Shown one piece after another: positions 2,808-39,687 of a stretch of 64,000 nt of DNA (position 1 is its first letter; each line of letters begins with the position of its first letter). Source of the DNA: Streptomyces cathayae. GTDB taxonomy: Bacteria > Actinomycetota > Actinomycetes > Streptomycetales > Streptomycetaceae. The DNA lies in the NCBI RefSeq assembly GCF_029760955.1, contig NZ_CP121682.1, positions 5,580,001 to 5,644,000 on the forward strand, read 5' to 3'. The notes below the pieces were generated by a model. It did no database searches. It was not told the DNA's origin and saw nothing but the letters and a program-made list of their open reading frames with translations. Made by a program: the position numbers and the translations under genes.

Positions 2808-2835
2808 CAGCCCTCCGCGTGAGGAACGCTCTGTT

Positions 2836-2875
2836 CGGGGCGGCCGTCGAGGAACCACTCCTCGGGGCCGCCCCG
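2836..2875. terminator. Hairpin terminator after the DUF475 gene
   Basis: An outer 10-bp stem (CGGGGCGGCC with GGCCGCCCCG) encloses an inner 6-bp stem (CGAGGA with TCCTCG). It lies 28 nt past the DUF475 stop codon. Confidence 0.7.
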
Positions 2876-2973
2876 TCGGCCGTTGCGGGGGCGGCGGAAC
2901 GGCGGGACAACGGGACGGCGGGACGGCACGGCAGCGGGGCCGGCGGGGTTCCACGAGCGGACTTGGGGCGGGA

Positions 2974-3711: not shown

Positions 3712-3726
3712 GGACCCGGTTGCGCC

Positions 3727-3752
3727 AGGGCCCCGGTCGTGCCGGGGCCCCT
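3727..3752. terminator. Bidirectional hairpin terminator
   Basis: A GC-rich stem (GGGCCCCGG with CCGGGGCCC, TCGTG loop) lies between the convergent TerA-like and TerD-like genes. Confidence 0.65.
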
Positions 3753-3764
3753 CCGGACCGGGCT

Positions 3765-4691: not shown

Positions 4692-4875
4692 GCGGTCATC
4701 CTGCCCTCTCCGTCCTGACCACGACAATGCGGGGGTATCGAGACGGTAGGGGAACGACACCGTCGGGACCCCCGGAGTTCACACCGGGCGGGAACCGCCG
4801 ACATCGTTCCGTACGTACTATTACCGGCCACCTTCCGACATTCCACAGCATGCCCAACGGCCACGGGGGAGTTCA

Positions 4876-6042: not shown

Positions 6043-8732
6043 CGTACCGGAGCGACGGCAAGAGACCTCATGGAGAAGGCAGTGAGAAGTCAGTGAACGA
6101 GGCAGTGCGCCGTGAGGCGCGCGACGGGGCACCGACCGGCGAGGGCGCGACCGGTGGGAGCGTCTGGTCCGGGAGCTGGGTCGCGGAGCGGCTCGGCGTC
6201 GAACTGGCCGGCGACGACCGGCTGACCGGACTGCTGGGCCTGGCCCTGCGCCGCAACCCCAAACGGGCCCACCTGCTGGTGTCCAACGTCCTCGGCAAGC
6301 ACGTACCCAGCCCGCCGTCGGTCGTCTACGGTCACGGTGTCGCCCTCGGCCGCCGGGTCCGCGAACTGCTGGGCGAACAGGCCCACCGGGCCGTGGTCCT
6401 CGGGTACGCGGAGACCGCGACCGGCCTCGGCCACTCGGTCGCCGACGGCCTGGGCGGCGCCCCCTGCCTGCACTCCACGCGCCGCCCGGTCCCCGGGGTG
6501 GCCACGGCGGGCGGTTTCGAGGAGTCCCACTCCCACGCGACCTCGCACCTGCTGCTCCCCGAGGACCCCGGGCTGCTGGCCGGGGACGGGCCGCTGGTCC
6601 TGGTCGACGACGAGTTCTCCACGGGCAACACGGTGCTGAACACCGTGCGCGATCTGCAGGCGCGGTATCCGCGGACGCGGTACGTCGTGGTCGCCCTGGT
6701 CGACATGCGCTCGCCCGCCGACGCCGGGCGGCTGGACGAGTTCGCCCGCGAGATCGGGGCGCGCATCGACCTGGTGACGACCGTGGCGGGCACGGTGCGG
6801 CTGCCGGAGGGCGTCCTGGAGAAGGGACAGGAGCTGGTCGCGCGGTACGAGGGTGCCACGGGGGACGCCGGTGCCCTCGGCCGTGCGGCCGACGGCGGGA
6901 ACCACCCCCTGGGGGCGCGGGACGCAGCCGAATCTGCGGCCACCGCCGCGCGGGCGCGATCGACCCGAGACGGCCCGCACCCGGACGGCAAGCTCACACG
7001 GGTGGATCTGGGCTGGCCTTGTGGCCTTCCCGACGGCGGACGCCACGGCTTCACCCCCGCGCACCGCGCCCGCCTGGAGAGCGCACTGCCCGACATGGCG
7101 GCCCGCCTCGCAGCGGCACTCCCCGACGGCGCGCACCGCGTGCTCGTCCTCGGCTTCGAGGAGCTGATGTACGCCCCGCTCCGCCTCGCCCACGCGCTGG
7201 AGCAGAGGGGCGTCGAGGCGCGCTTCTCGACCACCACCCGCTCACCCGTCCTCGCCGTCGACGACCCCGGCTACGCGATACGCACCCGGCTGGTCTTCCC
7301 CGCCCACGACGACCCCGCCGACGGTCCCGGCGAGCGCTACGCCTACAACGTCGCGGGCGCCGGCTTCGACGCCGTGGTCGCGGTCGTCGACTCGGCCGCC
7401 GACACCCCCGCGCTGCACGCGCCCGGCGGTCTGCTGGCCGAGCTCGCCGCGCACACCCCGCAGGTCCTCCTCGCGGTCATACCGTCGTACGTCCCCGCGC
7501 CCTCCTACGGACCTGCCGGACCCGACGTACCCGCCGGACCCGCCGGACCCGACGCCCTCGAAAGGCCCGCCTCCATGCTGCCCGAGCCCCTCCGCGGCCC
7601 CGCCTTCTCCTCGTACGCGCCCGAGGAGGTCGGCTGGCTGCTCCAGGACCTCTCGGACGTCACCCTGGAGGCGCCGACCGAGGAGCGCGAGGAGGCCATC
7701 CAGAGCGGCGGCGCGCACTACGCCGAGTCGCTGCCCGTCGAGTACCAGCCGAGCGAGCAGTACCAGCAGCTCTTCCACGCGGCCCTCGAGACCTCGGCGG
7801 CCCGCCTCGCCCACGCGGTCGGCGTGGTCACCGAGACCGTCCTCGCGGAGAGGTCACCGCGCCCGGTCCTGGTCTCCCTGGCCCGCGCCGGCACCCCCGT
7901 CGGCATCCTGATGCGCCGCTGGGCCCGGCACCGGCACCAGCTCGACCTCCCGCACTACGCCGTCTCCATCGTCCGCGGCCGCGGCATCGACGCCAACGCG
8001 CTGCGCTGGCTGGCCGAGCATCACGACCCCCGGGACGTCGTCTTCGTCGACGGCTGGACCGGCAAGGGTGCCATCACCCGTGAACTCGCCCAGGCCGTCG
8101 AGGAGTTCGAGAAGTCCCACGGCGTCACCGGCTTCGACCCGGAGATCGCGGTGCTGGCCGATCCCGGCTCCTGCGTACGGACCTACGGCACCCGCGAGGA
8201 CTACCTGATCCCCTCCGCCTGCCTCAACTCGACCGTCTCCGGCCTCGTCTCACGCACCGTGCTGCGGGCCGACCTGGTCGGCCCGGACGACTTCCACGGT
8301 GCCAAGTTCTACCGCGAACTCGCCGACGCGGACGCCTCGGTGGCCTTCCTGGACGCCGTCGCCGCCCGCTTCCCCGAGGTCACGGACGCAGCCTGCGCCC
8401 AGGCCAAGGAACTGCTCGCCACCGACCGCACCCCCACCTGGGAGGGCTGGGCCGCCGTCGAACGCATCAGTGAGGAGTACGGCATCCACGACGTGAACCT
8501 CGTCAAGCCCGGCGTCGGCGAGACCACCCGGGTGCTGCTGCGCCGGGTGCCCTGGAAGATACTGGCGCGGGCCGGGGCGGGCAGCGACCTCGACCACGTC
8601 CGGCTGCTGGCCGAACAGCGGGGCGTCCCCGTCGAGGAGGTCGACGGACTCCCGTACACCTGCGTCGGGTTGATCCACCCCCGGTACACGCGCGGCGCGA
8701 CCGGCGCCGACGGCAGGGCGGTGACCCGCTGA
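6039..8732 (+). CDS. Fused phosphoribosyltransferase - TRSP - phosphoribosyltransferase/StiP protein
   Basis: 897 residues fusing domains that are separate proteins in many bacteria. An N-terminal type I phosphoribosyltransferase carries its PRPP loop LVLVDDEFSTGNT at residues 186-198. A middle TRSP domain contains the eponymous TTTRSP near residue 398. A low-complexity Pro/Gly/Asp linker (about 488-510) follows. The C-terminal region is of the PRTase/StiP type, with VLVSLARAGTPVG and VVFVDGWTGKGAI near residue 667. GTG at 6039 overlaps the previous stop (GTGA); an alternative GTG at 6093 with an upstream purine-rich site would remove 18 poorly conserved residues. It probably supplies the ribosyl-transfer steps of the proposed Ter metabolite pathway. 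Product and substrates are unknown. Confidence 0.87.
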   Translation: MTYRSDGKRPHGEGSEKSVNEAVRREARDGAPTGEGATGGSVWSGSWVAERLGVELAGDDRLTGLLGLALRRNPKRAHLLVSNVLGKHVPSPPSVVYGHGVALGRRVRELLGEQAHRAVVLGYAETATGLGHSVADGLGGAPCLHSTRRPVPGVATAGGFEESHSHATSHLLLPEDPGLLAGDGPLVLVDDEFSTGNTVLNTVRDLQARYPRTRYVVVALVDMRSPADAGRLDEFAREIGARIDLVTTVAGTVRLPEGVLEKGQELVARYEGATGDAGALGRAADGGNHPLGARDAAESAATAARARSTRDGPHPDGKLTRVDLGWPCGLPDGGRHGFTPAHRARLESALPDMAARLAAALPDGAHRVLVLGFEELMYAPLRLAHALEQRGVEARFSTTTRSPVLAVDDPGYAIRTRLVFPAHDDPADGPGERYAYNVAGAGFDAVVAVVDSAADTPALHAPGGLLAELAAHTPQVLLAVIPSYVPAPSYGPAGPDVPAGPAGPDALERPASMLPEPLRGPAFSSYAPEEVGWLLQDLSDVTLEAPTEEREEAIQSGGAHYAESLPVEYQPSEQYQQLFHAALETSAARLAHAVGVVTETVLAERSPRPVLVSLARAGTPVGILMRRWARHRHQLDLPHYAVSIVRGRGIDANALRWLAEHHDPRDVVFVDGWTGKGAITRELAQAVEEFEKSHGVTGFDPEIAVLADPGSCVRTYGTREDYLIPSACLNSTVSGLVSRTVLRADLVGPDDFHGAKFYRELADADASVAFLDAVAARFPEVTDAACAQAKELLATDRTPTWEGWAAVERISEEYGIHDVNLVKPGVGETTRVLLRRVPWKILARAGAGSDLDHVRLLAEQRGVPVEEVDGLPYTCVGLIHPRYTRGATGADGRAVTR

Positions 8733-9544
8733 TGACCGTCCTCGTCGCCAGTGACCTCGACCGCACGCTCATCTACTCCGCCGGCGCGCTCGCCCTGGCC
8801 GTGCCCGACGCCGAGGCGCCCCGCCTGCTGTGCGTGGAGGTCTACGAGAGCCGCCCGCTGTCCTTCATGACGGAGACGGCGGCCGGACTGCTCGCCGAAC
8901 TGGGTGACAGCGCGGTGTTCGTACCGACGACCACCCGCACCCGCGAGCAGTACGGGCGCATCAGCCTGCCCGGCCCCCCGCCGGCCTACGCCATCTGTGC
9001 CAACGGCGGCCATCTCCTGGTCGACGGCGTGTCCGACCCCGACTGGCAGGCCCGGGTGACCGCGCGCCTCGCCGCCGAGTGCGCCCCGCTCTCCGAGGTG
9101 CAGGACCATCTGCTGCGGACCGCCGAACCGGCCTGGACCCTCAAGCACCGGGTCGCCGAGGACCTCTTCGCCTACCTCGTCGTCGAGCGTCGGCTGCTGG
9201 ACGAGGAGTGGGTGAAGGAACTCGCCGTGTGGGCGGAGCACCGGGGCTGGACGGTCTCCCTGCAGGGCCGCAAGATCTACGCCGTACCGAAGCCGCTCAC
9301 CAAGAGCGCGGCCATGCGTGAGGTCGCCCGCCGCACCGGCGCCGACCTCACCCTCGCGGCCGGCGACTCCCTCCTCGACGCCGACCTGCTGCTCGCCGCC
9401 GACCGGGGCTGGCGCCCCGGCCACGGCGAACTGGCCGACGCCGGCTGGACGGCCCCCGGGACCACGGCACTGCCCGAGCGCGGGGTGCTGGCCGGCGAAC
9501 GCATCCTGCGGGAGTTCCTGCACACGGCCCGCACGTCACGCTGA
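8732..9544 (+). CDS. HAD-superfamily hydrolase of the Ter operon
   Basis: 270 residues. Motif I is ASDLDRTLIYS at residues 5-15, with both catalytic aspartates. A central cap region is followed by a C-terminal LAAGDSLLDADLLLAA holding the motif IV aspartates. This arrangement fits Cof-type or sucrose-phosphatase-like HADs. The ATG overlaps the preceding stop by one base (TGATG), so it is coupled to the fusion gene and is last in the operon, being followed by a perfect palindrome. It is probably the phosphatase that completes the pathway begun by the aldolase and phosphoribosyltransferases. The actual substrate cannot be read from the sequence. Confidence 0.87.
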   Translation: MTVLVASDLDRTLIYSAGALALAVPDAEAPRLLCVEVYESRPLSFMTETAAGLLAELGDSAVFVPTTTRTREQYGRISLPGPPPAYAICANGGHLLVDGVSDPDWQARVTARLAAECAPLSEVQDHLLRTAEPAWTLKHRVAEDLFAYLVVERRLLDEEWVKELAVWAEHRGWTVSLQGRKIYAVPKPLTKSAAMREVARRTGADLTLAAGDSLLDADLLLAADRGWRPGHGELADAGWTAPGTTALPERGVLAGERILREFLHTARTSR

Positions 9545-9547
9545 CGG

Positions 9548-9571
9548 CACCGGCAGGGGCCCCTGCCGGTG
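9548..9571. terminator. Perfect 24-bp palindrome, terminator of the Ter operon
   Basis: CACCGGCAGGGG is followed at once by its exact complement, 4 nt after the HAD stop codon. The convergent FmdB gene ends about 70 nt further on, so it may serve both strands. Confidence 0.65.
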
Positions 9572-9639
9572 ATCACCGGGATCCTTGCCGGTCGGTGACC
9601 GGTGACCGGTCACCGGGGAGTGCTGAGCGGCCGGGGCCG

Positions 9640-9864
9640 TCAGCCGCAGCAGCCCCCGCCGCAGCAGCCGCCCCCGCCACCCCCGCTCGCACGGGGTGCG
9701 GCGGCCGGGGCGGAGGCGGCACCGCCCACGGCGACCGTGGACAGGAGCTTCACCGTGTCGTCGTGTCCCGACGGACAGTCGGCCGGGGCGGCGGACTCCG
9801 CCATGGGACGGCTCAGTTCGAAGGTGTCGCCGCAGGTCCGGCAGCGGTACTCATAACGAGGCAT
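9640..9864 (-). CDS. FmdB family zinc ribbon protein
   Basis: 74 residues. MPRYEYRCRTCGDTFEL and DCPSGH supply the CxxC...CxxxH zinc-ribbon ligands of the FmdB/CxxC_CXXC_SSSS family. The C-terminus is an unusual Gly/Cys run (GGGGGGCCGGGCCG). The start is taken at ATG 9864, the family-conserved MPRYEY; an ATG two codons upstream (9870) is also in frame. It is a small cytoplasmic protein of unknown role, proposed elsewhere as a regulator. The terminal cysteine-rich tail might bind metal, which is inference. Confidence 0.88.
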   Translation of the reverse strand: MPRYEYRCRTCGDTFELSRPMAESAAPADCPSGHDDTVKLLSTVAVGGAASAPAAAPRASGGGGGGCCGGGCCG

Positions 9865-9932
9865 GCGCACAGGTTAACCGGCACTTCCCTGTTCGTGGCG
9901 GGGGAGAGCGGTGTGCGGGGGAGCCGTGCCGG

Positions 9933-11375
9933 TCAGCCGGCGGAGCCGCCGCGGTCCTCGCGGATCAGGGCCACCACCTGTGCCACCGACTCGCGGACCG
10001 CCTCCGTCTCCGTCAGGAAGTGCCAGTAGTCGGGGTGACGGCCCTCCAGGGCGTCGACGGCCCGGTCCAGGCGGGCCACGGCGGCGTCCAGCGGGTGGGC
10101 GTGGCGCGGGTCCGGGGTGTGGCGGCCGGCCATGGCCAGGCGCTGGGCGTCCCGGATGGCGAAGCGGGTGCGTTCGATCTCCTGCTCGGGGTCCTTCTGC
10201 ACGGCGTTCAGCCGGCGCAGCCGGTCACCGGCGGCGGACACCGCCTCGTCGGTCGTGTTCAACAGCGCCCGTACGGTCGACAGCAGGGCGGTCGCGTCCG
10301 CCCAGCGCTGTTCCTCGCGCGCGGTTCTCGCCTCGGCGAGCCTGCTCTCGGCCTGGCGCACGTTCTCCGCGGCCACCTCGGGGACGTGCTGCAGGTCCTG
10401 CCAGCAGGCGGCGGTGAAGCGGCGGCGCAGTTCGCTGAGGACCGGTTCCACCTGCGTGGACCGGGTGGTGAGGGCCTGGGCGCGGGTCCGCAGGGAGACC
10501 AGTCGGCGGTCGGTCTCGGCGGCCCGCTCCGGCAGCCGGTCGGCCTCCGCGCGGACGGCCTCGGCCTGACGGGTGACCTGCTCGGCCCGCTCCAGGGTCT
10601 GCGGCACACCGTGCTGCCCGGCGCCCTGGTTCAGCTTGGTCAGCTCCGGGGAGAGCATGGCGAGCCGGGCGGCGAGGTCGTCGGCCCGCAGCCCCGACCC
10701 GCGGGCGGTGTCCAACGCGTTCGACGCGGCGAGCAGGGCCTGCCGGGCACGCTCCACGGCGGGCGCGAGCCGGGCCAGCTGGGTCTCGGCCTTGCCGAGG
10801 AGGGGACCCAGGCCGTCGGTGAAGCGGTCCAGTTCCCGCTTGACCCGGTCGAGCTCGCCCTTGGCGGCGGTCAGCTCGGTGCGGGCCCGGGAGGCGACCG
10901 AGGCCTCCAGGTCGTCGCGGTCCAGGTCATGGGCGTCGATGGCCTCGATGTACTGGTGGCTGGCCTCGTCGATACGGCGGCCGAGCGCCTCGAAGTCGGC
11001 GACGACCCGGCGGGCGGCGGGGGAACTGTCGACGGCGGTGATCGTCTCGATGGAGATCCGCAGGTCCCGCTGGGCGGTGTCGAGCTCGTAGAACGCGGCG
11101 GCCGCCGCGTCCTTGGCGGTCTGCGCCTCGGCCCGCTGGTTCTCGGCCCGCCCGCCGAACCAGCGCCGGGTGCCGCCACCGGCGAACGCTGCGGCCAGCA
11201 CCGGCGCCGCCACCAGCGGCAGGGCCATCAGGGCGAGCGTGTCCCGGAGCGGACCGGCCGCCCGGCGCAGGCGCACCGTGCGACGGCGTGGCCACGAGGG
11301 AGGAGACAGAACACCACGCGTGCGGTGCACGCGTGGTCCCGACGGCGAGTACGGCTGCTCTGGTATCGCCGTCAC
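9933..11375 (-). CDS. Membrane-anchored coiled-coil protein, conserved in Streptomyces
   Basis: 480 residues. A short basic N-terminus is followed by one hydrophobic segment (about residues 48-66, LALMALPLVAAPVLAAAFAG) and a very long alpha-helical, charged region with heptad character to about residue 430. The start is GTG at 11375, supported by a GGGAGAGGG site 6 nt upstream, although an open frame continues to 11552. No catalytic motif is visible. The layout (N-in, one helix, extracytoplasmic or cytoplasmic coiled coil) resembles envelope-associated scaffold proteins that sit beside TPM-domain proteins in other actinomycetes. No specific function is assigned. Confidence 0.75.
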   Translation of the reverse strand: MTAIPEQPYSPSGPRVHRTRGVLSPPSWPRRRTVRLRRAAGPLRDTLALMALPLVAAPVLAAAFAGGGTRRWFGGRAENQRAEAQTAKDAAAAAFYELDTAQRDLRISIETITAVDSSPAARRVVADFEALGRRIDEASHQYIEAIDAHDLDRDDLEASVASRARTELTAAKGELDRVKRELDRFTDGLGPLLGKAETQLARLAPAVERARQALLAASNALDTARGSGLRADDLAARLAMLSPELTKLNQGAGQHGVPQTLERAEQVTRQAEAVRAEADRLPERAAETDRRLVSLRTRAQALTTRSTQVEPVLSELRRRFTAACWQDLQHVPEVAAENVRQAESRLAEARTAREEQRWADATALLSTVRALLNTTDEAVSAAGDRLRRLNAVQKDPEQEIERTRFAIRDAQRLAMAGRHTPDPRHAHPLDAAVARLDRAVDALEGRHPDYWHFLTETEAVRESVAQVVALIREDRGGSAG

Positions 11376-11448
11376 ATCCCTCTCCCGTACTGTCGTTCGC
11401 CCTGCCGGTGCCATTGTCCCACCGGTGGAAGACGAACACACGGGTCGG

Positions 11449-12297
11449 TCAGTTCGTCGTACGGACCGTGAGACTTCCGTCGCCGGTGCGGACGTCCACC
11501 CCATGGGGGCTGGTGTCGTCACGGGGCACCGACACGTGCTCGGCGCCGTCACCGGTGGTGGCCGTCACCCGGTAGGCGGCCCGGGGCAGTTCGACGGTGG
11601 TGGAACCGTCGCCGCTGCGGGACTCCACCAGGTCGGGGACGGCGCCCAGCGTCAGGTGCAGCGAGCCGTCACCGGTCCGGGCGCGCACGGTGCGCGAGTC
11701 GGCCTCGGCCCGCAGCGACCCGTCGCCGGTCCGCAGGTCCAGGGGTCCGGTGGTGTCGGTGACGTGCACGGACCCGTCCGTGGTACGGATGCTCAGCGCG
11801 TCGCGGAAACCCCGGGCCCGCACGCTGCCGTCGCCCTCCACGACCTTCACGGCGACCCCGCGGGGCACCTCGACGCGGTGCTTGGCGGAGCAGACGGCGA
11901 CGATGCCGGAACACTGCGTGCGCAGGGTCAGCTGGTCACCCTCCATCGACCAGGTGACCTTCGGGTCCGAGCCGAGGGCGACGGTGCCCTGGAACCACCG
12001 GGTGACCTGGATCCTGCCGGACGGATTCCCTTCCGCGGCCACGACCTCGAGCGCGGAGTCGCGGGAGTCGACGGTGAGGGTGCTGCCCGGCAGGTCGAAG
12101 GACCGGTGCTCGGGGTCCGTGTCCTCCGCGGCCGCCGCCCCGCAGGCGCTCAGCCCCGCGACGAGCACCACGGCGGCCCCGCCGAGAGCGACCGCGCGCC
12201 CGAGCCCGCCACGGGAGGGGCCGGCGCCGGCGGTACGGGCGGTGCCGCCCGTACCGTTGGTTCCGGTGCTGCGGGGCGTGCAGGTGGTGCGGGTCAT
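11449..12297 (-). CDS. Secreted lipoprotein with DUF4097-like beta-helix repeats
   Basis: 282 residues. The hydrophobic segment AVVLVAGLSAC near residues 39-49 ends in a lipobox with LSAC, so it should be a lipoprotein anchored outside the membrane. The mature part consists of repeated short strands with GDGS turns (EGDGSVR, TDGSVHV, TGDGSLR, TGDGSLHL, SGDGSTTV, TGDGSLTV), the signature of the DUF4097 right-handed beta-solenoid. The ATG at 12297 follows GGGGGAG at a good distance. The function of DUF4097 proteins is not established; some sit beside sensors and may act as adhesive or regulatory surface proteins. Confidence 0.85.
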   Translation of the reverse strand: MTRTTCTPRSTGTNGTGGTARTAGAGPSRGGLGRAVALGGAAVVLVAGLSACGAAAAEDTDPEHRSFDLPGSTLTVDSRDSALEVVAAEGNPSGRIQVTRWFQGTVALGSDPKVTWSMEGDQLTLRTQCSGIVAVCSAKHRVEVPRGVAVKVVEGDGSVRARGFRDALSIRTTDGSVHVTDTTGPLDLRTGDGSLRAEADSRTVRARTGDGSLHLTLGAVPDLVESRSGDGSTTVELPRAAYRVTATTGDGAEHVSVPRDDTSPHGVDVRTGDGSLTVRTTN

Positions 12298-12549
12298 GAC
12301 GGTCTCCCCCTGGGACGGACGGCGGCGCTCGATCTCCGGCGCATGTCGACCGTACGGACACGGGACCCGCCGGGGGATCCGGGCCACCACCGGATCCGCG
12401 GTGGGGTTTCCCCCACCCGGGAATCCAGGGATCACCCTGGGGAAACCCCGGTGGCAGGGTGCCGGACAGCCCTCGGGACAGGGGTGTGCCGGACCGCGCC
12501 CCGGGCCATGTAGGCTGTCGATTCGGCCTGGTCGGTGTGTCCGGGTCCC

Positions 12550-12621
<72 letters not shown>

Positions 12622-12634
12622 CCGTGTGACGATC

Positions 12635-12665
12635 AAGGGCCTCCGGAGACGTTCCGGAGGCCCTT
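12635..12665 (+). terminator. tRNA-Val terminator
   Basis: A perfect 13-bp stem (AAGGGCCTCCGGA with its complement, loop GACGT) lies 14 nt past the tRNA, followed by a short T-containing run. Confidence 0.8.
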
Positions 12666-12687
12666 CTCGCTGTGGACGGCGGCGCCC

Positions 12688-13083
12688 TCACGGGGACCGC
12701 TCCGTGCCCTTGGGCGGGTTCGCGTGGGCGTGCTTCAGCCGGGAGCGGGCGTGCACCCGGTCGGCGCCGGTGAGCTTCGCCCGGCAGCGATGAGCGCTGA
12801 CGAACACCACCAGCTCGTGCTCCCGGCGCCGCAGCTTCTCCACCTCGGCCTGTTCGTCCTCGGTCCAGCCGGGCGAGGCAGGGCGCTCGACCTGGCGCCG
12901 GCCGGCGTCGTCGCTGAACCCGTCGACGGGCTCCACCGACCAGGGAAGCCGCTTCAACAGGGCCGACAGCTCGGCCTGGACCTGACGCAACTCCTCCTGC
13001 CCGGCGAGGAGATCACTCGGAAGGTCATAGGTCGCGGCCACCCCCCGATCATACGCCTGTTCGATTTCGGGGGAGCAGGTCAC
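12688..13083 (-). CDS. Conserved hypothetical protein
   Basis: 131 residues if started at GTG 13083, which has GGGGAG 8 nt upstream; the frame is open to 13119 and a downstream GTG at 13041 is possible. The protein is hydrophilic with a helical, charged middle (LLAGQEELRQVQAELSALLK and TEDEQAEVEKLRRREHELVV), so a short coiled coil is likely. There is no signal peptide, membrane segment or recognisable catalytic motif. It faces the tRNA-Val gene convergently. Similar short proteins occur in other Streptomyces, but no function is known to me. Confidence 0.65.
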   Translation of the reverse strand: MTCSPEIEQAYDRGVAATYDLPSDLLAGQEELRQVQAELSALLKRLPWSVEPVDGFSDDAGRRQVERPASPGWTEDEQAEVEKLRRREHELVVFVSAHRCRAKLTGADRVHARSRLKHAHANPPKGTERSP

Positions 13084-13147
13084 CCGAGGGCTCCCCGGTG
13101 GTTCACCCTCGTGGCCCACAGGGGCCCGGCGGGGTCAGACTGGGGGC

Positions 13148-13381
13148 ATGTGCCGGAGTATCAAGACCCTGCGTCCGCCCGCCCTGCCCGAGGAGGCCAC
13201 CGAGGACGAGATCCGGGCCGCCGCCCTGCAGTACGTGCGGAAGGTGTCCGGCTTCCGGGCGCCGGCCGCCCACAACCGCGAGGTCTTCGACCGGGCCGTG
13301 GACGCGATCGCCGAGGCCACGGCCGAACTGCTGGACGGCCTGGAGGTGCGCGGCGCGGGCGCGGCGCGAGAGGCGGGGTGA
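13148..13381 (+). CDS. DUF2277 family protein
   Basis: 77 residues beginning MCRSIKTLRPP, matching the characteristic MCRNIRTL-type start of DUF2277, followed by EDEIRAAALQYVRKVSGF and a helical C-terminus (NREVFDRAVDAIAEATAEL). The family is small, soluble and of unknown function, common in actinobacteria. It starts 64 nt from the divergent hypothetical gene, so both promoters share a short gap. Confidence 0.9.
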   Translation: MCRSIKTLRPPALPEEATEDEIRAAALQYVRKVSGFRAPAAHNREVFDRAVDAIAEATAELLDGLEVRGAGAAREAG

Positions 13382-13424
13382 GCGGGCGGTCCCGGCCCAC
13401 CGCGACGCCCCGGCCGCGCCGTCG

Positions 13425-14027
13425 CTACGAGACCTCCACCGGTACCGGGTGCCGGCGCACCAGGTAGGTCGCTCCCGCGCCCGCCGCGAACAGCGCGCCG
13501 ACCGATACCGCGGTGGCGAGCCAGGACGCGCCCAGCCAGTGGGCGCCGAAGTAGCCGAGGGCCACGCTGTAGGCGGCCCAGGACAGGCCCGCCAGCGCCG
13601 ACCAGGGCAGGAAGTCGCGGGCCCGGCGGCGGGCGGCGCCCGCCCCGAGCGAGACCAGCGAGCGGCCCGCCGGGGCGAAGCGGGCGAGGACGACCAGGCC
13701 GCCACCGCCTCGGGCCAGCGCCGAGCCGAGACGTTCCTGCGCGCCGGTCAGCCGGCGCGACCGGGCGATCGCCCGGTCCAGACGGGCGCCGCCGCGCCAG
13801 GCGAGACGCCAGGCGACCAGGTCGCCCAGGACGGAGGCGGTGGCGGCGCAGAGGGTCAGCGCCAGGATGTCGGGCACGTCGGTCGCGGTGCCCGCGGCGG
13901 CGGCGGTGGCCGCCGCGATCACCAGGACCCCGCTCGGCAGCACCGGCAGGAACACGTCGAGCAGGACCGAGAGGGCCACCACCGCATAGACCCATGGACT
14001 GCCGACCAGCGCCCCGAAACTCTCCAC
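13425..14027 (-). CDS. DedA/VTT family membrane protein
   Basis: 200 residues with about five hydrophobic segments. It begins near LLDVFLPVLPSGVLVIAAA, the re-entrant region of the DedA/VTT fold, and has the conserved GDLVAWRLAWRGG and FAPAGRSLVSLGAG stretches; the latter contains the arginine typical of the FxxRxxP-G type motif. The start is GTG at 14027. DedA proteins take part in membrane lipid (undecaprenyl-phosphate, phospholipid) transfer or proton-dependent transport. Which of these applies here cannot be told. Confidence 0.87.
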   Translation of the reverse strand: MESFGALVGSPWVYAVVALSVLLDVFLPVLPSGVLVIAAATAAAAGTATDVPDILALTLCAATASVLGDLVAWRLAWRGGARLDRAIARSRRLTGAQERLGSALARGGGGLVVLARFAPAGRSLVSLGAGAARRRARDFLPWSALAGLSWAAYSVALGYFGAHWLGASWLATAVSVGALFAAGAGATYLVRRHPVPVEVS

Positions 14028-29411: not shown

Positions 29412-30269
29412 TCAGGGATGCCCCGTGAAAGTGACCGGCGTCTCGAAAGCGGCCCGGCGGGTGGCGCGGCGCAGGGCGCGGAGGACCGGGGCGCCCAGGG
29501 TCAGGGCCAGGACGACGGTGAGCAGGGCCCGGCCCAGGTCCCAGCCGAGGGACGTGGCCAGGCAGTACGCCACGAAGCGGGCCAGGTTGGCGGGGACCGA
29601 CGCGTCCGGGTCGAAGGAGATGTTCGAGGCGAGGGCGGCCATGAAGGGCCAGCCCGCCATGTTCATCACCGTGCCGTAGGCGAAGGCCGCCAGAAAGCCG
29701 TAGGCGGCGAGCATCCACAGCTCCGCGCGGCCCCGGAGGCGGTCCGGGCCCGGGAGCAGGCCCGCGCCCATCGTGAACCAGCCCATCGCCAGCATCTGGA
29801 ACGGGAGCCACGGGCCGACCCCGCCCGTGAGCAGCGCGGACGCGAACATCGTCACCGAGCCGAGCACGAAGCCGAAGCCGGGGCCGAGGACCCGGCCGCT
29901 CAGCACCATCAGGAAGAACATGGGTTCCAGACCGGCCGTCCCCGCGCCGATGGGGCGCAGGGCCGCGCCCGTCGCCGCCAGGACGCCCAGCATCGCGACC
30001 GCCTTCGGGCCGAGGCCCGACTCCGAGATCGTCGCCGCCACCACCGCGACCAGCAGCACCAGCAGCCCCGCGAAGAGCCACGGCGCGTCCTGCGCGTGGG
30101 CGTTGAGGGTGGAGGCGGGCGGGGCCAGGAAGGGCCAGCCGAAGGCGGCCACGCCCACCGCGCTCACCAGGGCCAGCGCCAGCAGCGACCGCGGTCCCAA
30201 GCGGACGGCCCGCACCTGGCGCTGCGCGCCGGTGACGGTGCCGGTGGTCGGGGTGCGTGCGGGGGTCAT
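29412..30269 (-). CDS. ECF transporter S component, probably cobalamin-specific
   Basis: 285 residues with about seven hydrophobic segments. LGVLAATGAALRPIGAG near residue 108 and the later GFGFVLGSVTMFASALLTGGVGPWLPFQMLAMGWFTMGAG pattern are typical of ECF substrate-binding (S) subunits. The ATG at 30269 overlaps the stop of the ATPase gene (ATGA), so it is last in a five-gene coupled operon. The S subunit determines substrate. The cobalamin riboswitch at the head of the operon points to vitamin B12 or a corrinoid. Sequence alone does not prove the ligand. Confidence 0.88.
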   Translation of the reverse strand: MTPARTPTTGTVTGAQRQVRAVRLGPRSLLALALVSAVGVAAFGWPFLAPPASTLNAHAQDAPWLFAGLLVLLVAVVAATISESGLGPKAVAMLGVLAATGAALRPIGAGTAGLEPMFFLMVLSGRVLGPGFGFVLGSVTMFASALLTGGVGPWLPFQMLAMGWFTMGAGLLPGPDRLRGRAELWMLAAYGFLAAFAYGTVMNMAGWPFMAALASNISFDPDASVPANLARFVAYCLATSLGWDLGRALLTVVLALTLGAPVLRALRRATRRAAFETPVTFTGHP

Positions 30270-31930
30270 GACAGGGCCGCCCGTACCTGGGAGACCGTGA
30301 GCCACTGCTGCGGGGCCAGGATCTTCGCCACCTGGGGGGCGAAGGACGGGGACGCGACGACCACCTCGGCCGCCGGCCCGTCGGCGATGACCTCGCCCTC
30401 GGCGAGCAGGACCACCCGGTGGGCGAGTTCCGCCGCCAGTTCCACGTCGTGCGTGGCCAGGACGATGGCGTGGCCCTCGGCGGCCAGCCCCCGCAGCACG
30501 GCGACCAGGCGGGCCTTCGCCGCGTAGTCCAGGCCGCGGGTCGGCTCGTCGAGCAGGAGCAGGGGCGGGCGGGCGGTGAGGACGACGGCCAGGGCGAGGG
30601 TGAGGCGCTGGCCCTCGGACAGGTCACGGGGGTGCGTGTCGTCCGCGACCCCGGGGAGCAGCTCCGACAGCAGGGCGCGGCAGGTGCCCGCCTCCGCCTC
30701 CGCGTCCCGGTCCGCGGCGGCGCACTCCGCGCCGACCGTGTCCGCGTACAGCAGGTCGCGCGGCTCCTGCGGGACGAGCCCCACCCGGCGGACCAGGTCG
30801 CGGGGGCGGAGGCGGTGGGGCACGGCGTCACCGGTGCGGACCGAGCCGGCGGAGGGTTCGACCAGACCGACCAGCGCGCCGAGCAGCGTCGACTTCCCGG
30901 CGCCGTTGCGGCCCATCAGGGCGACCGTCTCGCCGGGGGCGACCGTCAGGTCGATGTGGCGCAGGGCCTGGACACGGCCGCGGCGGACGGCGAGGGAGCG
31001 GGCTTCCGCCACGGGGGCGGGCGCCGAGGCGTCGGCCCTGGTGCGTGTGAACAGGCGCCGGCCGGAGGGCACGGGAGCCGGAGCCTTCCGTGCGGGCTCC
31101 TGCTGCGCCGCGGCCCCGGCCAGCCGCTCCCGCAGCCCGGCCGCCCGACGGCGCGCGTCCCGCACGGTCAGCGGCAGCGGGGACCACTCCGCGAGCCGGC
31201 CCAGCGCCACCACCGGCGGGAACACCGGGGAGACGGCCATCACCTCCGCCGGTGTGCCGAGCAGTGGGGGCTCGCCCCGCCCCGGCAGCAGCGCCACCCG
31301 GTCGGCGTACTGGATGACGCGTTCCAGCCGGTGCTCGGCCATGAGGACGGTGGTGCCGAGGTCGTGGACCAGGCGCTGGAGGACCGCGAGGACCTCCTCG
31401 GCCGCCGCGGGGTCCAGCGCGGACGTCGGTTCGTCCAGGACCAGCACCCGCGGGTGCGGGGTGAGCACCGAGCCGATGGCGACCCGCTGCTGCTGGCCGC
31501 CGGAGAGCGTCGAGAGGGGACGCCCGCGCAGGCCGGCCAGGCCCAGCAGGTCCAGGGTCTCCTCGACGCGGCGCCGCATCACCTCCGGAGGCAGACCCAA
31601 CGACTCCATGCCGTAGGCGAGTTCGTCCTCGACGACGTCCGTCACGAAATGGGACAGCGGGTCCTGGCCCACCGTGCCCACGACGTCGGCGAGTTCGCGC
31701 GGCTTGTGGGTGCGGGTGTCGCGGCCGGCCACCGTGACCCTGCCGTGCAGAGTGCCGCCGGTGAAGTGCGGTACGAGGCCGCTGACCGCGCCCAGCACGG
31801 TGGACTTGCCGACCCCCGACGGGCCGGCGAGCAGGACGAGTTCACCCTCCGGCACCTCGAAGTCGACGCCCCGCACGGAGGGTTCGGGCAGGCCGTCGTA
31901 CGTCACGGAGACGTTCTCGAAGCGGATCAC
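30266..31930 (-). CDS. ECF transporter ATPase, fused A1-A2 subunits
   Basis: 554 residues with two complete ABC ATPase domains in one chain. The first has GPSGVGKST (about 37-45), LSGGQQQR (about 142) and LVLDEPTSALD. The second has GRNGAGKST (about 338), LSEGQRLTLA (about 433, a slightly divergent signature) and LLLDEPTRGLD. An Ala/Pro-rich linker of about 60 residues joins them. The GTG at 31930 overlaps the permease stop (GTGA). It powers the ECF importer together with the T component just upstream and the S component just downstream. Fused EcfA pairs are common in actinobacteria. Confidence 0.93.
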   Translation of the reverse strand: MIRFENVSVTYDGLPEPSVRGVDFEVPEGELVLLAGPSGVGKSTVLGAVSGLVPHFTGGTLHGRVTVAGRDTRTHKPRELADVVGTVGQDPLSHFVTDVVEDELAYGMESLGLPPEVMRRRVEETLDLLGLAGLRGRPLSTLSGGQQQRVAIGSVLTPHPRVLVLDEPTSALDPAAAEEVLAVLQRLVHDLGTTVLMAEHRLERVIQYADRVALLPGRGEPPLLGTPAEVMAVSPVFPPVVALGRLAEWSPLPLTVRDARRRAAGLRERLAGAAAQQEPARKAPAPVPSGRRLFTRTRADASAPAPVAEARSLAVRRGRVQALRHIDLTVAPGETVALMGRNGAGKSTLLGALVGLVEPSAGSVRTGDAVPHRLRPRDLVRRVGLVPQEPRDLLYADTVGAECAAADRDAEAEAGTCRALLSELLPGVADDTHPRDLSEGQRLTLALAVVLTARPPLLLLDEPTRGLDYAAKARLVAVLRGLAAEGHAIVLATHDVELAAELAHRVVLLAEGEVIADGPAAEVVVASPSFAPQVAKILAPQQWLTVSQVRAALS

Positions 31931-33093
31931 GACGGCTCCTTGCCGGTGTCCTCGGGGGCGGGTGTGACGAAGGCGGGGAGCAGGCCGATCAGTACGGCCG
32001 CCGCCGGCCACAGGGGGAGCGTGGGCGCGACCAGCGGCACCACACCGGGGTGCAGGGCCGCCGGATCACGCGCGGCGGCGAGCGCCAGCAGCGCCGCGAC
32101 CGCCGCGCCGGAGCCGGTGACCAGCCAGGCGCGGGCGTCCCAGCGGTCCGGGCGGTAACGGGTGCGCAGGGAACGCCGGCCGCCCAGCCACAGGCCCGCG
32201 AGCGCGGCGGCGAGACCGGCCAGGAGCACGGGCAGGCCGTGGACGGCGCCCTCGGCGGTGAGCAGTCCGTACGTTCCGGCGCAGACGCCGAGCAGCCCGC
32301 CGAGGGTGAGGGCGGCGGTGGTGCGGCGGATCCCGGCCGGGACCTGCGCGCTGCGGCCGTAACCGCGGGCGTCCATCGCGGCGGCGAGCGCGACCGAACG
32401 CTCCAACGCGCCCTCCAGGACCGGCAGTCCGACCTGCAGCAGCCCCCGGACACCCCGGTCGGGACGGCCCCGCAGCCGGCGGGCGGCGCGCAGCCGCTGG
32501 ACGTCCGCGATCAGGTTCGGCGCGAACGTCAGCGCCACGACGACGGCCACCCCCATCTCGTACAGGGCGCCGGGCAGGGACTTCAGCAGACGGGAGGGGT
32601 TGGCGAGGGCGTTCGCGGCACCGACGCAGATGAGCAGCGTGGCCAGTTTCAGGCCGTCGTACAGGGCGAACGTGAGGGCCTCGGCCGTGACCTCGCCGCC
32701 CAGGCGGATGCCCTGCGCCCAGTCGGGGAGCGGGACCTCGGGCAGATCGACCAGCACACGCGTGCCGGGTACGGGGGAGCCGAGGACGATCGCGAAGAGC
32801 AGGCGGACGGCGAGCACGAGGAGCGCCAGCTTGACGAACGCGCCGTAGGAGCGGGCCCAGGGCGCGTTCGGGCGGCGGGTGGCCACGACGTACGCGGAGA
32901 CGGTCACGAGGAGGGCGAGCAGCAGCGGGTTGGTGGTACGGGTGGCGGCGACACCGAGGGCCAGGGCCCACAGCCACCAGGCACCGGGATGCAGGGCACT
33001 GCCCTGCCGGCGGCGCGAGGCGGGGGCGCCCGGCGGCACCGGACGTCCGGTGCCGGTGCCGGTGCGCCCCCGTGGTCGGGCGCCGCTAGCCAC
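31927..33093 (-). CDS. ECF transporter T component (CbiQ-like permease)
   Basis: 388 residues. Several N-terminal helices precede the CbiQ/EcfT core. Cytoplasmic coupling helices are visible as RLRAARRLRGRPDRG and DARGYGRSAQVP; the latter contains the characteristic A-R-G motif that contacts the ATPases. Further helices follow near the C-terminus (LLTAEGAVHGLPVLLAGLAAALAG). The start is GTG at 33093, overlapping the preceding gene by 8 nt. It forms the ECF module with the fused ATPase. The position between surface proteins and ATPase is the usual operon order for this system in Streptomyces. Confidence 0.9.
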   Translation of the reverse strand: MASGARPRGRTGTGTGRPVPPGAPASRRRQGSALHPGAWWLWALALGVAATRTTNPLLLALLVTVSAYVVATRRPNAPWARSYGAFVKLALLVLAVRLLFAIVLGSPVPGTRVLVDLPEVPLPDWAQGIRLGGEVTAEALTFALYDGLKLATLLICVGAANALANPSRLLKSLPGALYEMGVAVVVALTFAPNLIADVQRLRAARRLRGRPDRGVRGLLQVGLPVLEGALERSVALAAAMDARGYGRSAQVPAGIRRTTAALTLGGLLGVCAGTYGLLTAEGAVHGLPVLLAGLAAALAGLWLGGRRSLRTRYRPDRWDARAWLVTGSGAAVAALLALAAARDPAALHPGVVPLVAPTLPLWPAAAVLIGLLPAFVTPAPEDTGKEPS

Positions 33094-33775
33094 GACGGCG
33101 TACCTGCCAGACCGCCGCCGCCCCCAGCAACGCCACCACGGCGATCCCGGCGACCAGACCGAGCGAGGGGCCGCCGTCGCCCTCCGAGGAGGACGAAGAC
33201 GCCGTCGGCGCCGAGGACTTCGCGCCGTCCTCCCCCTCCGACTTCTCGGGCTTCCCGGGCGCCGGTGCGCTGCCGCCCGACACCTGCTCCCCGCAGCCCT
33301 TCTCCGGATAGCCCGCGATCGCGCACAGCAGGGCGTTGCTGTCGTAGCGCAGGGGCTTGGCGACGGAGGCCAGGGCCTCGGCCGTCGTGGCGTCCGAGGG
33401 GACCCGGGCGCAGGCGGTGCGGCCGTCCGGCGGGGTCTCGCCGGACGGGGCGTCGGCGGCGATACCGAAGTCGATGACCAGGGCCACCCGCTTCTCACCG
33501 TCCTTCGCCGGGGTCTTCGCGCAGATCGCGGCGAAGTCGGCGGCGCCCCGGGGCCGCGTCGCGTCGGCGGAGTCCTCGCTGACGGCGAACCGGAAACCCT
33601 GGACGTCGCCGTCGGCGGGACGGGCCGTCGAGGGCCCCTGGGTGGCGTACGTCCACGCGTCGCCGTCCAGGTCCCAGAACGACCAGTACCGGTAGCCGGC
33701 GGCCTGCGCCTGGCCCACGCCCGCCAGCAGCGGCAGGAGCGCGGCCAGGAACAGCACGGTGGCCCGGCGGATCAC
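33086..33775 (-). CDS. Secreted, C-terminally anchored protein of the B12/ECF operon
   Basis: 229 residues. A signal peptide (RRATVLFLAALLPLLAGVGQAQA) is followed by a roughly 150-residue exported domain starting YRYWSFWDLDGDAWTYATQG, with four cysteines (two pairs likely disulfide-bonded). A Ser/Glu/Lys-rich spacer and a C-terminal transmembrane helix (LGLVAGIAVVALLGAAAVW) with a basic end follow. The GTG at 33775 overlaps the stop of the barrel protein (GTGA). Membrane anchoring beside an ECF transporter suggests a substrate-capture or docking role. By analogy it may correspond to the small beta domain of transcobalamin-type carriers, which is a hypothesis. Confidence 0.8.
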   Translation of the reverse strand: MIRRATVLFLAALLPLLAGVGQAQAAGYRYWSFWDLDGDAWTYATQGPSTARPADGDVQGFRFAVSEDSADATRPRGAADFAAICAKTPAKDGEKRVALVIDFGIAADAPSGETPPDGRTACARVPSDATTAEALASVAKPLRYDSNALLCAIAGYPEKGCGEQVSGGSAPAPGKPEKSEGEDGAKSSAPTASSSSSEGDGGPSLGLVAGIAVVALLGAAAVWQVRRRG

Positions 33776-35028
33776 GACTGCTGCTTCCGGCTCCGGCCGC
33801 GCAGCAGGAAGACGGCGCCGACAGCGGCGACGAGGCAGACACCGACGATCGAGAGGGTCCACCGGAGGCCGGACCCGGAGTCCGACGCGGCCTTCGCGGC
33901 CTTCTCGTCCTGTCCGGCCTTGTCGTCGTTCGCCGTCCGCGAGGACTCCCCGGCGGCCGGCCCGGTCGCCGAGAGCTGCTTCACCAGGTCGGTGCCGCCG
34001 AAGGCGCGCGGGTCGGTGCCGGTCGCGTGGGCGGCGAAGATCAGCTGGGCGTAGGCGGCGGGGCCGCTCTGGGCGGCCCAGTCGGCGGCGTTCTCCGCCA
34101 GCCAGGCCGCGGACTTCGCGGCCTGCCCGGTGGCGCCCTGCGCGGCGAGCGCGACCACCGCGTCGGCGGTGTTGCCGTAGTCGGGCTGGTCCTCGGAGCC
34201 GGGGAGGGCGGAGACGAGGTGGTCGTCCCCGGCGAGTACGCCGGCGAGGTGGGCGGCGCCGTTGGCGGCGGCCTGCTCGGGCGTGTCCGCCTTCTCGCAA
34301 CCGGCGTCCGCCGACTCGCCCTTGCCGGGTTCGACCACCAGGCCCGCGCCGAGGGAGCCGGCCACGCCCGCCGCCGTGGCGTCGGTATTGGCGACCAGTT
34401 CGCCCTTCTTGCCCGGCTGGAAGGCGAACGCGCCCGCGCCGTCACCCTCGTCGTCGCACGGCAGCGCCAGCTTCAGCAGGGCGTCGTAGGGGGACTTGCC
34501 GTCCTTGACCGCCTCGGCCGGCTTCTCGCCCGTCGCGGCGAGCGCGCCGATGACCACGGAGGTGGAGTTGGCGTCGCTGTCCCCGCCCGCCATGTAGCCC
34601 CAGCCGCCGTCCTCGTTCTGCACGGACTTCAGCCAGTCGACGGCCTTGCCGACGACGGCGTCGTGCCCGCCGAGGGCGGCGAGGGCCTGGACGGCGGCGG
34701 CGGTCTGGTTGGTGTCGACCATGGTCGTGGCGTCGCACGCCGTGCCGGTGTCCGCACGGTACGGGGCGAACGAGCCGTCGGCGCACTGCTGCCCCGCCAG
34801 CCAGTCGACGGACGACTTCGGCGGCTCGACGCCCACCGTGTGCTGGGCGAGCAGGGCGAGCGACTGCCGCCACACGCCGTCGTACTGCGGATCGCCGTCG
34901 CCGTACAGGGCGGCGGGCAGGGGCTGTTGGGACGGTGAGGGGGACGGGGACGAGTCGGCGGCGGCCGGTACGGCGGCACCGATCACGGCGACGGCGGCCA
35001 GAACCGCTGCGCTGCTACGGACGTTCAT
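33772..35028 (-). CDS. Secreted alpha/alpha-barrel (prenyltransferase/terpene-cyclase-fold) protein of the B12/ECF operon
   Basis: 418 residues. A signal peptide (VLAAVAVIGAAVPAAA) is followed by about 300 residues of paired helices with repeats of the squalene-cyclase/prenyltransferase type: VDWLAGQQCADGSF, VDWLKSVQNEDGGWGY, SAAWLAENAADW. A charged spacer and a C-terminal transmembrane helix (WTLSIVGVCLVAAVGAVFLL) plus basic tail come last. It is exported, so an enzymatic terpene role is unlikely. The same barrel fold forms the corrinoid-binding domain of intrinsic factor and transcobalamin. The ATG at 35028 is the first gene after the cobalamin riboswitch. Confidence 0.85.
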   Translation of the reverse strand: MNVRSSAAVLAAVAVIGAAVPAAADSSPSPSPSQQPLPAALYGDGDPQYDGVWRQSLALLAQHTVGVEPPKSSVDWLAGQQCADGSFAPYRADTGTACDATTMVDTNQTAAAVQALAALGGHDAVVGKAVDWLKSVQNEDGGWGYMAGGDSDANSTSVVIGALAATGEKPAEAVKDGKSPYDALLKLALPCDDEGDGAGAFAFQPGKKGELVANTDATAAGVAGSLGAGLVVEPGKGESADAGCEKADTPEQAAANGAAHLAGVLAGDDHLVSALPGSEDQPDYGNTADAVVALAAQGATGQAAKSAAWLAENAADWAAQSGPAAYAQLIFAAHATGTDPRAFGGTDLVKQLSATGPAAGESSRTANDDKAGQDEKAAKAASDSGSGLRWTLSIVGVCLVAAVGAVFLLRGRSRKQQS

Positions 35029-35111
35029 GATCGGCGGATGCCTCTTTCCCACTGGGGAGCCAGGCAGCACGGGACATCCCGGCGGCTCGGCTCCGTAAAC
35101 CTCGACGGTGC

Positions 35112-35137
35112 CGCGCCCCGGCGGGCCGCCGGGCGCG
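35112..35137 (-). terminator. Hairpin in the cobalamin riboswitch expression platform
   Basis: On the minus strand CGCGCCCGGCGG pairs with CCGCCGGGGCGCG (one bulge). It lies just after the aptamer and about 85 nt before the first start codon. It could act as an intrinsic terminator or as part of a ribosome-site switch. Confidence 0.5.
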
Positions 35138-35144
35138 TGAGCCG

Positions 35145-35275
35145 GTCACGAACCGTCCGGGGCGTTCCGGCTCGCCGTCCCGGGGGACGGCTCACGGTTG
35201 CGGGTCAGCGCCGGAATTGCACCGGCTTTCCCCCGTACGGGTGATGACGACGCCGTCACTCTACCCGTACGTAAG
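35145..35275 (-). promoter_or_regulatory. Cobalamin (B12) riboswitch
   Basis: Read on the minus strand, the leader contains GGGGGAAAGCCGGTGCAA, then TTCCGGCGCTGACCCGCAAC and CGTGAGCCG. This closely matches the adenosylcobalamin aptamer core (GGGAA-CGGTG-AA-TCCGG-GC-G-CCCGCAACYGT), with the later GAGCCGGAACGCC matching the AGUCxGRxxxCC segment. It precedes the five-gene surface-protein/ECF operon, which should be shut off when intracellular cobalamin is high. Boundaries are approximate. Confidence 0.88.
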
Positions 35276-38614: not shown

Positions 38615-39687
38615 CCACTTCCCGGACAGAACACCTCGTCCTGCCCGGGGTCCTCACCGCCGGGCAGGCCGCCGCGACCGTCGCGGGCATCCTCGCCGTG
38701 CAGCGTGAGGACGGGGCGATCCCGTGGTTCCGCGGACACCACCTCGACCCGTGGGACCACGTCGAGGCCGCCATGGCGCTGGACGCCGCGGGCGCCCACG
38801 AGGCCGCCGAGCGGGCCTACCTGTGGCTGGCCAGGCACCAGTTGGCGGACGGCTCCTGGTACGCGGCGTACGCCGACGGCGACCCGCTCGACGTCACCGA
38901 CCGGGGCCGGGAGACCAACTTCGTCGCCTACATCGCCGTCGGCGTCTGGCACCACTACCTCTCCACCGGCGACGACACCTTCCTGGACCGCCTGTGGCCC
39001 ACCGTGTACGCGGCGGTGGAGTACGTGCTGAAACTGCAGCAGCCCGGCGGGCAGATCGGCTGGCGGCGCGACGACGACGGCACGCCCACCACCGACGCGC
39101 TGCTCACCGGCTGCTCCTCCGTCCACCACGCGCTGCGCTGTGCGCTGGCCATCGCCGAGCAGCGGGAAGAGCCGCAGCCGGACTGGGAGTTGGCGGCGGG
39201 CGCGCTCCGGCACGCGATCCGGCACCACCCGGAGCGGTTCCTCGACAAGAACCGCTACTCGATGGACTGGTACTACCCCGTACTGGGCGGCGCCCTCACC
39301 GACACGGAGGCCAAGGCCCGGATCGCGGAGGGCTGGGACCGTTTCGTCGTCCCCGGACTCGGGGTGCGCTGCGTGATCCCCAACCCGTGGGTGACCGGCG
39401 GGGAGTCGGCCGAACTCGCCCTGGCCCTGTGGGCGACGGGCGAGTCCGACTGGGCGCTGGAGATCCTCCAGTCCATCCAGCACCTGCGCGATCCGGAGAG
39501 CGGCCTGTACTGGACGGGGTACGTCTTCGACGACGAGGCGGTCTGGCCGGTCGAGCTGACCACCTGGACGGCCGGCTCGCTGTTGCTGGCCGTCGCCGCG
39601 CTCGGCGGCCACGAGGCCACCTGCGCGGTGTTCGGCGGCGACCGCCTCCCCCGAGGCCTCGACCCGGACTGCTGCGCTCTGGTCTGA
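38611..39687 (+). CDS. Cytoplasmic alpha/alpha-barrel protein (prenyltransferase / six-hairpin type)
   Basis: 358 residues. Repeated helix-hairpins with the signatures ILAVQREDGAIPWF, WLARHQLADGSWYAAY and LKLQQPGGQIGWRRDDDG place it in the terpenoid-cyclase/prenyltransferase or six-hairpin-glycosidase superfamilies. HHLDPWDHVEAAMALDAAG and a late DDEAVWPVELTTWTAGSLLLA are conserved-looking. It has no signal peptide. The C-terminus DCCALV is cysteine-rich. The GTG at 38611 overlaps the methyltransferase stop (GTGA), completing a three-gene coupled operon. The annotation as prenyltransferase is by fold; a role in a glycolipid pathway is equally possible. Confidence 0.83.
   Translation: MTTSRTEHLVLPGVLTAGQAAATVAGILAVQREDGAIPWFRGHHLDPWDHVEAAMALDAAGAHEAAERAYLWLARHQLADGSWYAAYADGDPLDVTDRGRETNFVAYIAVGVWHHYLSTGDDTFLDRLWPTVYAAVEYVLKLQQPGGQIGWRRDDDGTPTTDALLTGCSSVHHALRCALAIAEQREEPQPDWELAAGALRHAIRHHPERFLDKNRYSMDWYYPVLGGALTDTEAKARIAEGWDRFVVPGLGVRCVIPNPWVTGGESAELALALWATGESDWALEILQSIQHLRDPESGLYWTGYVFDDEAVWPVELTTWTAGSLLLAVAALGGHEATCAVFGGDRLPRGLDPDCCALV

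Follow-up and report, generated by a model that had tools for sequence, protein, structure and literature searches.

A riboswitch-led importer operon of Streptomyces with two circularly permuted surface proteins, a candidate split counterpart of transcobalamin

A five-gene operon behind a cobalamin riboswitch

The locus described here lies in a 64,000-nucleotide stretch of the Streptomyces cathayae genome (contig NZ_CP121682.1, positions 5,580,001 to 5,644,000; hereafter the window). It consists of a cobalamin riboswitch followed, on the minus strand, by genes for two exported, surface-anchored proteins (g1 and g2) and for the T, A, and S components of a putative energy-coupling factor (ECF) importer. 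Successive genes overlap by 4, 8, 4, and 4 nucleotides in the order g1, g2, EcfT, EcfA, and S, with start codons that were chosen from alignment and reading, not mapped. The riboswitch, an AdoCbl-II aptamer on the minus strand at 35152 to 35248, matched RF01689 with 38.9 bits (gathering cut-off, 36.5; E = 1e-5 in the window) and is the sole RF01689 site of the whole genome (7.6 Mb). Against RF00174 it scored 30.2 bits, short of the 31.5 required, a threshold that four further sites elsewhere in the genome exceed, including G000:C1:6190835-6190973. A CobN gene lies ~3 kb downstream of one of those other cobalamin riboswitches on the same strand, so that scavenging of B12 by the operon, as proposed below, may save B12 synthesis rather than replace it.

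The first gene, g1 (33772 to 35028; ATG start, 418 amino acids), encodes an alpha/alpha-toroid protein of the SCO2321 family (NF053823, 573 bits; cut-off, 300) that matched SQHop_cyclase_C (27.7 bits; cut-off, 26.1) and Prenyltrans (28.1 bits; cut-off, 26.5) in Pfam. A signal peptide, a hydrophobic C-terminal segment, and a basic tail were recognized by eye, and the best PDB sequence matches were squalene-hopene cyclases. Class II terpene cyclases carry the catalytic motif DXDD; at this column g1 reads DTNQ, and DXDD occurs in none of the 32 toroids of alignment A3, which speaks against g1 being an enzyme. The second gene, g2 (33086 to 33775; GTG start, 229 amino acids), encodes a member of the SCO2322 family (NF040672, 239.7 bits; cut-off, 85). 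Its product starts with a signal peptide and ends in a hydrophobic segment with basic residues (both by eye), and that end corresponds to the GPS-CTERM anchor (NF040681, 31.1 bits; cut-off, 28). The closest named homologs of g2, among 120 matches listed, are from Streptomyces. The precomputed Pfam label PF28005.1, found on g2 relatives and likewise on four Euzebya-type fusion proteins (P0121 to P0124), was not returned for g2 in the Pfam search, and a PF14478 search of the window's own genome gave no match.

The three remaining genes encode the transporter. EcfT (31927 to 33093; GTG start, 388 amino acids) matched the CbiQ family PF02361 with 34.4 bits (cut-off, 25), and the fused ATPase EcfA (30266 to 31930; GTG start, 554 amino acids) contains two ABC_tran stretches (E = 1.3e-53) and exceeds the TIGR01166 cbiO cut-off (241.7 versus 211.8). 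A CbiQ-type T subunit together with two ABC domains identifies an ECF transporter. The S component (29412 to 30269; ATG start, 285 amino acids), the membrane substrate-binding subunit and predicted to be corrinoid specific, scored 30.0 bits against PF12822 (ECF_trnsprt), just below the cut-off of 30.7. It belongs to a conserved family that adjoins T and A genes and whose members sit beside SLBB or DUF4430 genes. ECF_trnsprt was its only Pfam match, with no CbiM family among the results, and a search of PDB sequences with the S-family profile (a comparison of sequence only) gave no relevant match, CbrT included. All of these assignments bear out a preliminary description of the locus, which had read a cobalamin riboswitch ahead of five minus-strand genes with 4- to 8-nucleotide overlaps, the first an exported, anchored alpha/alpha-barrel protein, the second another exported, anchored protein, and the others EcfT, fused EcfA, and S.

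Conservation of the operon and its riboswitch

Searching with the S component alone, we kept the best 80 of 557 confirmed relatives, all of them from Streptomyces or Kitasatospora. A total of 68 of these 80 loci had g1, g2, and a riboswitch-like leader together; in the other 12 the contig ends <1.9 kb upstream of the S gene, which leaves the upstream genes off the contig. The SCO2322 model, run on a broader set of 296 actinobacterial genomes, found matches in 44 of them, including the window's own, 10 of these above the cut-off. Forty loci were taken from 39 of the 43 other matching genomes (G036, G108, G194, and G225 are not among them), and three of the loci (L044, L064, and L065) are cut short by contig ends. 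The S gene was found in the stretch at 37 of the 40 loci, T and A at 38, and a toroid at 34. Arrangements vary: in L052 S precedes the toroid, and the toroid and SLBB genes of L070 are on the strand opposite S-A-T. Anchors vary as well, with S-layer homology domains on one toroid and CWB2 repeats on Euzebya-type fusions (L062, 7341 to 9149; L036, 3397 to 6279; L068, 4120 to 6573).

B12 riboswitches recur at these loci. We counted as leader matches those on the operon strand from 60 nucleotides inside to 700 nucleotides upstream of the toroid or SLBB domain. At Rfam gathering thresholds, 17 of the 40 leaders carried a B12 riboswitch; in addition, Rfam B12 riboswitches lie outside the leader in L047 (three sites), L052, and L066. 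Used as a nucleotide profile, the window riboswitch gave 41 matches up to E = 10 across the 40 loci, with leader matches at 37 loci (35 at E ≤ 0.12 and 29 at E ≤ 0.01). The weakest two, in L035 (E = 7) and L043 (E = 1.1), carry Rfam matches of 85.9 and 96.3 bits at the same place. An above-cut-off Rfam match adds the leader of L044 and brings the count to 38 of 40 loci with weak matches included, in line with the co-occurrence that the preliminary description had proposed to survey. Nucleotide profile and Rfam found no leader riboswitch in L034, where the toroid lies at a contig end, or in L061. The most elaborate arrangement was L047 (G204:C1:670000-684000), where positions 2173 to 13899 hold one importer amid four cobalamin riboswitch matches, two toroids, and two SLBB copies.

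Six of the 40 loci had no toroid in the stretch. A genome search recovered a clear toroid elsewhere in four of these genomes (G134, G284, G102, and G166) and a weaker, partial match in G058; none was found in G062 with the toroid profile. Each of these four unlinked toroid genes is closely preceded, on its own strand, by a cobalamin riboswitch match, two of them above the cut-off (RF00174, 32.5 versus 31.5; RF01482, 52.6 versus 50) and two below it (RF01482, 43.1 and 39.9; E = 6.4e-5 and 3.5e-4). These matches provide a separate line of evidence connecting the toroid with B12 biology. Glycine riboswitches also lie close to two of the unlinked toroid genes (L234 and L236). The G062 locus (L051, G062:C1:1920000-1934000) has a riboswitch-like leader, a permuted SLBB domain, and T-A-S, and offers a test case for an SLBB protein acting alone.

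Two circular permutations and a link to transcobalamin

Profile comparison indicates that g1 and g2 are both circular permutants of their relatives in other Actinobacteria, a feature that the preliminary description had missed. For g2, the SCO2322 profile matches its C-terminal half ahead of its N-terminal half in G134, G284, G102, and G166 (the first half weakly in G166). We set 126 SCO2322-type domains against 33 standard-order ones, after dropping 4 of 130 SCO2322-type sequences (P0112 and three loci) that were unfit for the cutting pattern. The hhalign score was 122.8 over 102 columns when one set was rotated and 75.6 over 39 columns when it was not; 60 column shuffles reached maxima of 17.6 and 19.1, respectively. 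Alignments with insert columns kept gave nearly the same values (120.8 rotated, E = 8.4e-22; 75.5 unrotated). A scan of the rotation point in 6-column steps showed a plateau at 42 to 66 of 141 columns, which is the linker between the halves. The SLBB-clade order of strand 1, strand 2, helix, hairpin, and strands 3 to 5 likewise fits g2 only after rotation, its second half coming first, and for this reason we describe g2 as a permuted relative and not as a standard member of the SLBB clade. Where the DUF4430 row has two glycines, g2 carries D and N, although the choice of signature-glycine columns is our own reading of the available text of PMC1796856.

In window-type g1 proteins the chain begins midway through the standard toroid, whose first part comes last. 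In a comparison of eight window-type rows with 28 others (L053, one of nine window-type rows, and the unrelated-looking L060_9553 were excluded), hhalign scored 258 over 255 columns with rotation and 182 over 179 columns without it; shuffle maxima were 22.9 and 21.1. The rotation scan peaked at 267, at positions 186 to 198 of 309. Besides the window, eight loci from its genus (L053 to L060) and G062 have the permuted SLBB domain. In a tree of S components, the nine same-genus rows formed one supported set (99/99), and G062 was unplaced. One genome of the window's genus (G171) has both a standard-order system (L052) and a permuted one (L053), at two places.

The standard-order relatives connect g2 to DUF4430, which we take to be the family of the transcobalamin beta domain. 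Against 30 DUF4430 domains from other Actinobacteria (6 of 36 stretches, shorter than 80 residues, were excluded), the standard-order SLBB set aligned with a probability of 92.5 and a pairwise E of 4.7e-7 over 72 columns; its score of 43.9 compares with at most 22.3 in 60 column shuffles. The hidden Markov model of these relatives also matched one DUF4430 protein (E = 7.9e-5). Ten relatives searched in Pfam (one of them permuted, from L051) gave no DUF4430 match, and the standard-order profile gave nothing relevant against PDB sequences.

Genomic context points the same way. DUF4430 matches were present in 26 of 149 genomes, and in 15 of these 26 a distant S-family member (E ≤ 1e-15) lies 2.5 to 3.5 kb from the DUF4430 domain. 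All 15 loci have A and S, 9 have a toroid, and 5 have T as detected by this search. An operon-strand B12 riboswitch at gathering threshold occurred in 10 of the 14 such loci that were scanned. It stands directly ahead of the DUF4430 gene region in L217, L221, L224, and L229, and an open reading frame of ~790 to 970 codons lies between the two in L218, L222, L223, L226, L228, and L230 (~850 to 970 codons in L218, L223, L226, L228, and L230). The fifteenth locus, L231, has a sub-threshold RF01689 match of 29.8 bits. These shared neighbors indicate that the Streptomyces operons and transcobalamin-type operons, of a kind predicted in 2007, have the importer and both surface parts in common. Three of the DUF4430 loci (L217, L220, and L231) have, next to the importer, open reading frames of 1538 to 1839 amino acids that contain several DUF4430 domains, and no toroid was found there. 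L065 (G040:C203), where a single gene row led by a riboswitch combines a toroid with both a DUF4430 protein and a standard SLBB protein, is intermediate between the two types.

In Euzebya, toroid and SLBB domain are fused in a single chain. Foldseek searches with the modeled fusion, outside its wall-anchor repeats, returned transcobalamin (E = 7.6e-9) and intrinsic factor (E = 7.2e-8) as the closest solved structures, with terpene cyclases following from 1.1e-4. PF01122, the eukaryotic cobalamin-binding family, gave a single weak match among 10 proteins scanned, to one Euzebya fusion (16.1 bits; cut-off, 25).

A predicted surface capture device and its alternatives

We read the operon as encoding an ECF-type corrinoid importer, repressed through its riboswitch, whose capture device consists of two chains tethered to the cell surface, with both surface domains permuted, and put the probability of this reading at roughly 0.78. 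The operon would be expressed when cellular adenosylcobalamin is low, as the riboswitch family suggests. The g1 toroid and the predicted beta-grasp (SLBB) domain of g2, each tethered outside the cell by its C-terminal membrane segment, would then close around a corrinoid much as transcobalamin does with its alpha and beta domains. The S component would take over the corrinoid, and its import would be driven, judging from domain homology, by EcfT and the fused ATPase EcfA. We also lean, with less assurance, toward the more specific proposal that this is a split transcobalamin of Streptomyces: two anchored chains, toroid and SLBB, each separately permuted, that may feed an ECF S component through a dedicated extracellular binding complex. 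The transcobalamin-like proposal of the preliminary description thus survives as a candidate, now resting on the g1 toroid, a rotated g2 with DUF4430-like relatives, recurrent riboswitches, and the Foldseek result for the Euzebya fusion.

Several results limit this reading. Alone, g2 gave no match in the Pfam copy searched, DUF4430 included, and nothing in the PDB sequence search, and its AlphaFold prediction was too poor for use. The profile comparison of g2 with DUF4430 that had been suggested as a check succeeded through the standard-order relatives but was weak when the rotated window g2 family was compared directly (23.5, with shuffles up to 19.8); it is for this reason that the link runs via those relatives. 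The model of the Euzebya fusion fails to reproduce the domain packing of transcobalamin, and VIA-align 2 ranks terpene cyclases first for a related toroid taken alone.

The packing result is also what would be expected of a corrinoid importer without a joint g1-g2 clamp, in which g2 or S alone binds and the toroid is an accessory, perhaps a scaffold in the cell wall or a partner for other cobamide forms. The G062 locus, with its leader, permuted SLBB, and T-A-S in a genome where no toroid was found, would suit such an importer, as would the unlinked toroids of four genomes. However, toroid and SLBB share a stretch at 34 of 40 loci and are fused in Euzebya, and B12 riboswitch matches precede all four unlinked toroids, so that we consider the clamp-free arrangement unlikely.

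Still less probable is a B12-regulated importer of other cargo, namely cobalt or a cobalamin precursor or base. Cobalt importers, too, are riboswitch controlled, and the CbiQ-like EcfT and the cbiO-level score of EcfA would suit one. We set a cobalt importer aside because S matches ECF_trnsprt only, with no CbiM family in Pfam, and toroid and SLBB partners would seem ill-suited to a bare metal ion. That g1 is an extracellular enzyme of terpene-cyclase or prenyltransferase type whose product its operon mates import, as its best Pfam and PDB sequence matches and the VIA-align 2 ranking might suggest, is very improbable given DTNQ in place of DXDD (absent also from the A3 toroids), the export and anchoring of g1, and the B12 riboswitches at most related loci.

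Parts of this system have known counterparts. Burroughs et al. (2007; PMC1796856) described exported, sometimes anchored SLBB proteins with an alpha/alpha toroid, often accompanied by a second extracellular SLBB protein, in operons with a CbiO-like ATPase and a CbiQ-like protein, and predicted that they scavenge B12. The window likewise has an exported SLBB-like protein, a toroid partner, and a CbiO/CbiQ operon; in contrast, its system comes from Actinobacteria, divides the two domains between two chains, has both permuted, and is led by a B12 riboswitch. The range given in PMC1796856 is low-GC Gram-positives, planctomycetes, and, less often, euryarchaea, and its main text uses the word actinobacteria once, concerning ComEA, and contains no form of permut. 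Animal transcobalamin and intrinsic factor share with the window proteins a toroid alpha domain and, as predicted for g2, a beta-grasp beta domain, whereas the window proteins are two chains, permuted, and membrane anchored, and the docking of the animal proteins is not reproduced in the fusion model. ECF-CbrT of Lactobacillus delbrueckii is a cobalamin ECF importer with an S component; according to the available text of PMC5997447, however, a single ECF module there serves CbrT and other S components alike. A precedent for a circularly permuted beta-grasp is the UFD domain of E1 enzymes, in which, in the text available from PMC1949818, strand 1 has moved to the C terminus; in g2 it is two halves that are exchanged, in an SLBB-like domain.

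The preliminary description had further held that the usual labels hide the function of these proteins. The names of the NCBIfam families SCO2321 (NF053823) and SCO2322 (NF040672), to which g1 and g2 belong, indeed carry no function, fold, or B12 link, but they are family names already in place. One paper names SCO2321: the available text of PMC9237094 calls the protein hypothetical and describes a delivery peptide inspired by its signal sequence. Our literature search, with most subscription papers outside its scope, found no paper on the SCO2321-2325 importer or on a permuted SLBB domain. B12 scavenging by SLBB and toroid proteins of other bacteria was predicted in 2007 (PMC1796856); the literature searched contained neither the system of Streptomyces nor its riboswitch nor the two permutations.

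The analysis offers a testable function for the SCO2321 and SCO2322 families (at least 3469 scored matches to g2) in an industrially important genus and connects both families with the bacterial counterparts of the animal B12 carriers. It also suggests how a large group of antibiotic-making bacteria may catch B12. Among the relatives, a single binder of two domains occurs in fused, adjacent, unlinked, and permuted forms. They are well suited to studying how such a clamp can be split and circularly permuted and still persist, and whether extracellular binding proteins can serve ECF importers.

Two minor features of the window concern its surroundings. A weak toroid-profile match at 38767 to 39171 (E = 7.1e-4) was not taken as related; its open reading frame adjoins glycosyltransferase- and methyltransferase-like genes (by eye). 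RNase P RNA lies at 61049 to 61452, some 26 kb away from the operon's riboswitch end, and is also found near the S gene in L034, L045, and L063.

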